Part shown: one piece after another, positions 33,424 to 34,632 of the stretch
How the letters are laid out: each line of letters starts with the position of its first letter
Position numbering within the stretch: the first letter of the stretch is position 1
DNA from: an uncultured Prochlorococcus sp.
Lineage (GTDB): Bacteria; Cyanobacteriota; Cyanobacteriia; PCC-6307; Cyanobiaceae
DNA: 35,521 nucleotides
Assembly: GCA_902587615.1 (NCBI GenBank)
Contig: CACILY010000011.1
Coordinates: 1-35,521, forward strand
Direction: 5' to 3'
The notes under the pieces: model-generated
What the model saw: only the letters and a program-made list of their open reading frames with translations
What the model was told of the DNA's origin: nothing
Databases searched by the model: none
Program-made: the position numbers and the translations under genes

Positions 33424-33503
33424 TAGGTTGTGTTCAATTAATGATGATTTTATTCAGGTATGCTCCCCTGATAGCTTTGAATATATGCAGTCCATTATCT
33501 CTC

Positions 33504-34632
33504 TTGCTAGATCTAACTGAATTCAAACGAGATCTTTCTCTACTTACTAAGCGCCTGGGCAATGCTCAGGACTGTCTTTGACGTTCCGGCTCTCCAAGCA
33601 ACCCAGAAAAACCTTGAAGCACTAGTAGCTCAACCTGATTTTTGGAATGACCAGCAGCATGCTCAAAAAAAAATGCGAGCGCTTGATGAAGTAAAGGCAG
33701 AATTAAGGCAATTAGAAGAATGGGGTATAGCCATAGAAGATGCAAAGGCTTCTATAGAACTGTGTGAGATTGAACCAGATGAGGAGATGATGTTTGAGGC
33801 AAAGCTTGGTCTGGATAAACTGAAATTAGAACTTGATCGCTGGGAGCTGGAGCGTTTATTAAGTGGTTCCTATGACAAAGAAGGTGCAGTCTTGTCAATT
33901 AACGCTGGAGCAGGAGGCACTGATGCGCAGGATTGGGCTCAAATGCTTTTAAGAATGTATACAAGATGGGCCGATGATCAAGGAATGAAAGTGACAGTAA
34001 GTGAACTCTCAGAAGGTGAAGAGGCTGGTATAAAAAGCGCTACGATTGAGATTGAAGGTAGATATGCTTATGGATATCTTCAAAATGAAAAGGGGACACA
34101 TCGATTAGTTAGGATTTCACCTTTTAATGCGAATGGAAAAAGGCAAACTAGTTTTGCAGGAGTTGAGGTTATGCCCAAACTTGATGAAGAAGTTGAATTA
34201 GATTTACCTGAGAAAGACTTGGAAATCACCACAAGTCGATCAGGTGGGGCTGGGGGACAAAATGTTAATAAGGTAGAGACTGCTGTACGTATTGTTCATA
34301 TACCGACTGGTTTAGCAGTCCGTTGTACTCAAGAGCGCTCACAATTACAAAATAAAGAAAAAGCAATGATACTTTTGAAATCAAAATTAATGGTCATCGC
34401 TCAAGAACAACGGGCTGCTGAGATAGCTGATATTCGTGGTGACATCGTGGAAGCAGCTTGGGGAAATCAAATAAGAAATTATGTTTTCCATCCATATCAA
34501 ATGGTTAAAGACTTGCGAACCTCGCAAGAAACTACAGATGTAGAAGGGGTAATGAATGGGAAAATAGATCAATTCATCCAGGCTTTATTGAGAGACGCTT
34601 TAGAGCAATCTAGGGAACATCCTCAGGGGTAA
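33504..34632 (+). CDS. prfB: Peptide chain release factor 2, with programmed +1 frameshift
   Basis: Releases nascent chains at UGA and UAA. The gene is in two frames. Frame one starts at TTG 33504 and gives 25 residues ([20 protein letters not shown] near its start), ending at CTT TGA C (33576-33582). After a +1 shift, translation continues from GAC 33580 for 350 residues, total 375. With that numbering the SPF stop-codon motif is at 205-207 and GGQ at 250-252, as in E. coli RF2. The ATG at 33562 in the main frame would lose the conserved N-terminus and is not the true start. Upstream ATGs at 33441/33444 are in frame but unlikely. Confidence 0.93.
33568..33582 (+). promoter_or_regulatory. prfB: prfB +1 recoding site
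   Basis: AGGA (33568-33571) lies four bases before the slippery codon CTT (33576-33578), which precedes TGA and C (33579-33582). This matches the E. coli prfB element: an internal Shine-Dalgarno, then CUU UGA C. When RF2 is low, ribosomes pause at the UGA and slip +1, so RF2 regulates its own synthesis. The internal SD is weaker than AGGGGG. Confidence 0.9.

Follow-up and report, generated by a model that had tools for sequence, protein, structure and literature searches.

Release factor 2 (RF2) is autoregulated in many bacteria by a programmed +1 frameshift in its gene, prfB, that has been reported in 64–87% of bacteria (PMC12421855, PMC5009743, PMC3711429). In the form known from E. coli, the shift site CTT TGA C has its TGA at codon 26, follows a weak E-site codon (UAU/UGU) and leads into a product encoded in the +1 frame, and a hyper-conserved AGGGGG or AGGAGG lies 3 nt from the CTT as an internal Shine–Dalgarno (SD) sequence. 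A 2025 survey of 12,753 genomes described the SD-like element of prfB as "almost universally conserved" (PMC12421855), and Flavobacterium johnsoniae, in which SDs are hardly used, nevertheless carries a perfect AGGAGG in prfB (PMC8710568). The question of whether a hairpin in cis could replace the internal SD on 70S ribosomes was raised in 2013 (PMC3639245). An artificial hairpin placed just 5' of the E site at CUUUGA mimics the internal SD on 70S ribosomes: with E. coli 70S ribosomes, and solely in the absence of RF2, it gave about 60% of the +1 stimulation of the internal SD, and its effect increases with stem stability (Huang, Cho and Chang 2018, PMC6321510). Such an effect is proposed to arise either because the closing stem pulls the mRNA in the 5' direction or because back-slipping is blocked (PMC3639245). 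Bypassing in T4 gene 60 is also proposed to be powered by a 5' stem-loop that re-zips at the mRNA exit and draws the mRNA 5'-ward (PMC5009743), and the attenuator hairpin of SARS coronavirus likewise lies upstream, refolds near the E site and acts on frame, although it lowers −1 shifting and does so on eukaryotic ribosomes (PMC3639245).

We examined prfB in a window of 35,521 nt (the whole stretch of DNA analysed) from an uncultured Prochlorococcus sp., whose small, incomplete genome comprises 1.1 Mb in 59 contigs and is about 60% complete; RF1 is encoded elsewhere in this genome, where it was named from a weaker 35% match. On the forward strand, a zero-frame segment of 25 codons beginning with TTG (33504..33578, supported by its translation and by the frame shared with relatives) runs into the shifty stop CTT TGA C (33576..33582), so that the in-frame TGA at 33579–33581 is codon 26. 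The +1 frame is open as far as 34632 and encodes the rest of RF2 (33580..34632, 350 codons plus stop, from the ORF list and alignment), including the domains with the SPF and GGQ motifs. The fused two-frame product has 375 aa, aligns with E. coli K-12 RF2 at 42% identity over 366 aa, and has SPF at 205 and GGQ at 250, the same positions as in the E. coli protein. An earlier note on this DNA had proposed both the frameshift at codon 26 and this shared numbering, and both hold. It had also warned that automatic calling would begin at ATG 33562, and the ORF list bears this out, with 25 residues lost and six wrong ones (MLRTVF) gained. The prfB start should thus be annotated at the TTG, from which the first residue would be formyl-Met, and not at the ATG (33562–33564), which overlaps the loop of the hairpin described below.

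The relatives of this prfB belong to Prochlorococcus, Synechococcus and Cyanobium. The earlier note had considered that the upstream frame might prove unconserved in related genomes, and we found it kept in every relative read, with CTT TGA C and the same 25-codon zero frame in 79 of 79 picocyanobacterial loci. Codon 1 is TTG or GTG at all of these loci except one with CTG (L051), and a weak, non-ATG start is accordingly conserved in almost all picocyanobacteria (the window and L005–L084). At two loci (L012 and L014) an in-frame stop immediately precedes the TTG and rules out a start further upstream.

The frameshift as such is of the textbook autoregulatory kind and already known: the early in-frame TGA with the remainder of RF2 in the +1 frame, the CTTT slippery sequence and the C after the stop are all present. 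The strong AGGGGG or AGGAGG 3 nt before the CTT is not, since the window reads CAGGAC, and we therefore class this prfB as a variant whose stimulator is different. The AGGA at 33568..33571 (forward strand) forms a duplex of only −4.2 kcal/mol with the intact anti-SD of the same genome (GGATCACCTCCTAA), compared with −12.5 kcal/mol for AGGGGG in E. coli. The earlier note was right to call this internal SD weak, and its frameshift and coordinates stand, but it overlooked a class-wide hairpin that holds the AGG in its 3' arm. Because the SD gave way to this hairpin, the question becomes whether the hairpin now does the job, and not how a weak SD copes.

The hairpin is a 7-bp inverted repeat on the forward strand (CCTGGGC-AAT-GCTCAGG, 33554–33570) that ends exactly 5 nt before the CTT. 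Its 5' arm CCTGGGC (33554..33560) is supported by a covariance-model match, by the fold and by covariation, its 3-nt loop AAT (33561..33563) by the fold and the ORF list, and its 3' arm GCTCAGG (33564..33570), which makes one G-U pair with the 5' arm and contains most of the AGGA remnant, by the fold, the reading of loci and the covariance-model match. The 5-nt spacer ACTGT (33571..33575) contains TGT as the E-site codon. The local fold in the window is −10.4 kcal/mol, and our covariance model R1 matches at 33551–33583 with 52.3 bits. With CTT as the P-site codon, the 3' arm occupies the bases 12 to 6 upstream of it with two bases left before the E-site codon, approximately where an SD duplex would lie in the mRNA exit region; a stable stem a few nucleotides 5' of the E-site codon, as expected of a refolding hairpin, is thus present as 7 bp ending 2 nt before it. 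The fold of the whole region 33504–33600 was no better than shuffles in the window alone (z = −0.32), so the hairpin signal is local and comparative. Rfam gave no gathering-level match in the window and, at E up to 5 within 33480–33660, only two sub-threshold matches to unrelated families, and we rejected a known Rfam element for want of a family match. A terminator reading was likewise rejected, as the U-run is absent from the right place.

We read the prfB site at 189 Cyanobacteriia loci, representing 118 distinct sequences, and found CTT TGA in all of them. The next base is C throughout except at L186, the sole locus read with an A after the TGA (CTT TGA A). All seven pairs are kept in the same ungapped register at 163 loci and six at another 20 (at least six in 183 of 189), with the remaining loci retaining five pairs (two loci), four (one) or three (three). 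The consensus is CG CCTGRGY AAA RCYCAGG ACTAT CTT TGA C, in which the spacer reads ACTAT or ACTGT, and the distance from stem to CTT is fixed at 5 nt at every locus that has the stem. R1 detected the element in 380 of 390 Cyanobacteriia genomes, covering every family sampled, though a handful of these matches are weak, such as those in G012 and G349 (E 0.03 and 0.09), where no prfB site was reached. Three of the ten genomes lacking a match (G036, G058 and G184) gave no RF2 match either, and the remainder are mostly fragmented or incomplete assemblies.

The hairpin is selected at the RNA level. Across the 189 loci, sliding the register by one to three bases lowered pairing from 95.8% to 14–56%, and in an alignment of 57 distinct sequences (A2) 93.2% of cells pair, a value reached by none of 500 shuffles. 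Both sides have changed in four of the seven pairs in A2, and RNAalifold on the same alignment calls only five of the seven. Pair 5 occurs as G-C at 70 distinct sites, A-U at 20 and G-U at 24; A-C never occurs, against 13.3 expected from a simulation of independent evolution on the RF2 tree (p = 0.001), and the same simulation gave 15.9 expected mismatches at pair 7 against two observed (p = 0.07). The simulation was used because a more conservative independent-pairs sign test on the tree had too few supported branches; that test was non-significant, with no wrong-way pair at pair 5. The two pairs link a Gly/Ser codon to an Ala/Thr codon, base 1 to base 3 in pair 5 and base 3 to base 1 in pair 7, and protein constraint by itself would hardly produce such covariation. 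In AT-rich genes, the element also contains codons far in excess of the same genes' usage (CTG in 61 of 65 genes, 1.9 expected; CGC in 57 of 65, 5.7 expected; CAG in 60 of 62, 14.8 expected), though these loci are related and their z-scores are not independent tests. Synonymous resampling of the window gave a mean fold of −3.0 kcal/mol against the −10.4 kcal/mol of the actual sequence (p = 0.01), and among 69 genes 64–75% per GC class differed at p < 0.05. The covariation, the slid and shuffled controls and the synonymous null agree that the stem, and not only its sequence, is under selection.

Our comparison beyond Cyanobacteriia covered E. coli, the non-photosynthetic sister classes of the same phylum, and published work. 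Sister-class SDs are strong (AAGGAG TGT CTT TGA, GGGAGG TCT CTT TGA, AGGAGG CAT CTT TGA), and occupy the position of the cyanobacterial AGGA, and neither these classes nor E. coli have a comparable conserved hairpin. Median local fold and SD:anti-SD energies in 24 genes from these classes and E. coli are −3.35 and −8.85 kcal/mol, whereas those of the 189 Cyanobacteriia loci are −11.7 and −4.2 kcal/mol. Cyanobacteriia have thus reciprocally lost the strong SD relative to their sister classes, and the stabilising energy has moved from an mRNA:rRNA duplex to an mRNA:mRNA duplex. What the class shares with E. coli is the shift site, the position of the stop, the weak E-site codon and the +1 product; in place of the hyper-conserved SD it has an AGGA remnant and a conserved hairpin. 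Most loci retain the AGGA in the register of the sister-class SD AAGGAGTGT, and it may still contribute to shifting. At three sister-class loci (L202, L212 and L223), partial inverted repeats rich in A-U (CGTTTT..AAAATAAAGG) accompany a strong SD and share the register of the cyanobacterial stem; these are possibly a precursor and possibly chance.

Since the 3' arm lies about where the SD duplex would sit, and given the precedents of the artificial hairpin and gene 60, we consider it likely, with a probability of roughly 75%, that the hairpin, and not chiefly an SD:anti-SD duplex, is the natural stimulator of the +1 shift in Cyanobacteriia prfB. We infer its action on the ribosome, the direction of the effect and the pulling mechanism from position and analogy. 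When RF2 is low, the ribosome would pause once TGA has entered the A site, and the tRNA-Leu could slip from CUU to UUU. The 7-bp hairpin, melted by the passing ribosome, would re-form behind it, and while CUU occupied the P site the 3' arm would lie in the mRNA exit region in the place of an SD duplex. Re-zipping of the stem may then pull the mRNA 5'-ward, favouring the +1 move, or the stem may instead block back-slipping and disturb the E site, again favouring +1. Compared with the artificial hairpin, a designed 12-bp stem used only in vitro (PMC6321510), the cyanobacterial stem is natural, shorter at 7 bp, 5 nt from the CTT and class-wide. Gene 60 differs too: there ribosomes hop a long way from one matched codon to the other and a nascent-peptide signal takes part, whereas prfB makes a +1 move at a shifty stop.

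A more conventional explanation is that the weak AGGA is the real stimulator and that the 5' arm is kept for the N-terminal helix of RF2 or for keeping competing SDs away. The intact anti-SD and the presence of AGGA at most loci, in the sister-class register, are consistent with this, but a duplex of −4.2 kcal/mol offers little energy, and both the covariation at pairs 5 and 7 and the excess of CGC and CTG in the 5' arm fall outside the AGGA. Additionally, the stem is kept where the AGG has gone: at L235 pair 1 has swapped from C-G to G-C, destroying the AGG, and L180 and L232 have AGC in its place. We therefore reject a plain weak SD as the whole story and regard this explanation as unlikely. 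The stem might otherwise act as a brake or switch that hides the AGGA from the anti-SD and keeps shifting low unless temperature, ions or a factor opens it. The AGG lies within the stem, so that stem and SD duplex are mutually exclusive, and such control would fit as an extra layer on RF2 feedback; however, it needs a strong SD worth hiding and the one present is weak, it does not explain the intact stem of L235, and the stem is in any case melted by the ribosome ahead of every decision, all of which make it quite doubtful.

It is improbable that the inverted repeat works at another level, in transcription pausing, mRNA cleavage or protein binding. It is a stem-loop located early in the coding region, and the lack of an Rfam match means that no known role is assigned or excluded, but the 5-nt spacing to the CTT is fixed across the class, a proper U-run is missing after the stem, and elements of that kind would not be expected to go together with SD loss. 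Pairing could also be a by-product of coding constraint, as the amino acids of the hairpin region are themselves conserved (peptide RLGKTQDYL). Synonymous resampling weakens the fold both in the window and in most genes of each GC class, however, and compensation ties silent positions to amino-acid-changing ones, leading us to reject coding constraint alone as highly improbable.

The reading of the hairpin as a stimulator extends to its origin. It is fairly probable that in the ancestor of photosynthetic cyanobacteria the SD:anti-SD stimulator was replaced by a hairpin doing the same mechanical work, which has since been kept throughout the class, except that a few Prochlorococcus lineages have lost it again, in part with an SD-like sequence taking its place. 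Five Prochlorococcus loci have lost the hairpin (L067, L069, L070, L080 and L226) and two have nearly done so (L014 and L236), while the shift site remains. Four of these (L069, L070, L080 and L226) carry GTAGAGGA (GAGGA, −5.8 kcal/mol) in place of the hairpin, which is suggestive of an exchange of hairpin for SD; L067, L014 and L236 have no clear SD, so we do not claim the exchange as strict.

Our literature search found no prior description of a cyanobacterial prfB hairpin; the 2002 survey of RF2 sites was outside this search, and an earlier remark may exist there. The text of the 2025 survey mentions neither cyanobacteria nor hairpins (PMC12421855), and the section on 5' stimulators in a 2016 review, which shares authors with earlier RF2 surveys, does not include the element (PMC5009743). 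If the hairpin does stimulate the shift, it would be a natural cis hairpin driving +1 movement on bacterial ribosomes, and nature would already have run the experiment posed in 2013 (PMC3639245), and hundreds of variant sequences, as well as a few natural losses, would be available for tests. This suggests that ribosomes can be driven into a new frame by a second, natural route, and the prfB hairpin would be a small, convenient system in which to study how force applied at the mRNA exit shifts the frame. Cyanobacterial prfB also matters for programs that look for frameshifts on the condition that an SD is present.

We also observed several irregular prfB loci. At L234 (G409), the 5' arm has lost one base, so that prfB can be read from ATGATGGAAGTG with no frameshift, which is possibly a natural loss of autoregulation, or else an assembly error in a draft genome. 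In two genomes (G193 and G291), prfB adjoins a second RF2 match that contains one in-frame TGA. L239 (G295:C7), about 1 kb upstream of prfB, is a second copy of the gene in tandem that carries a CTTTGAC of its own, and there the hairpin is degraded and the frame broken.
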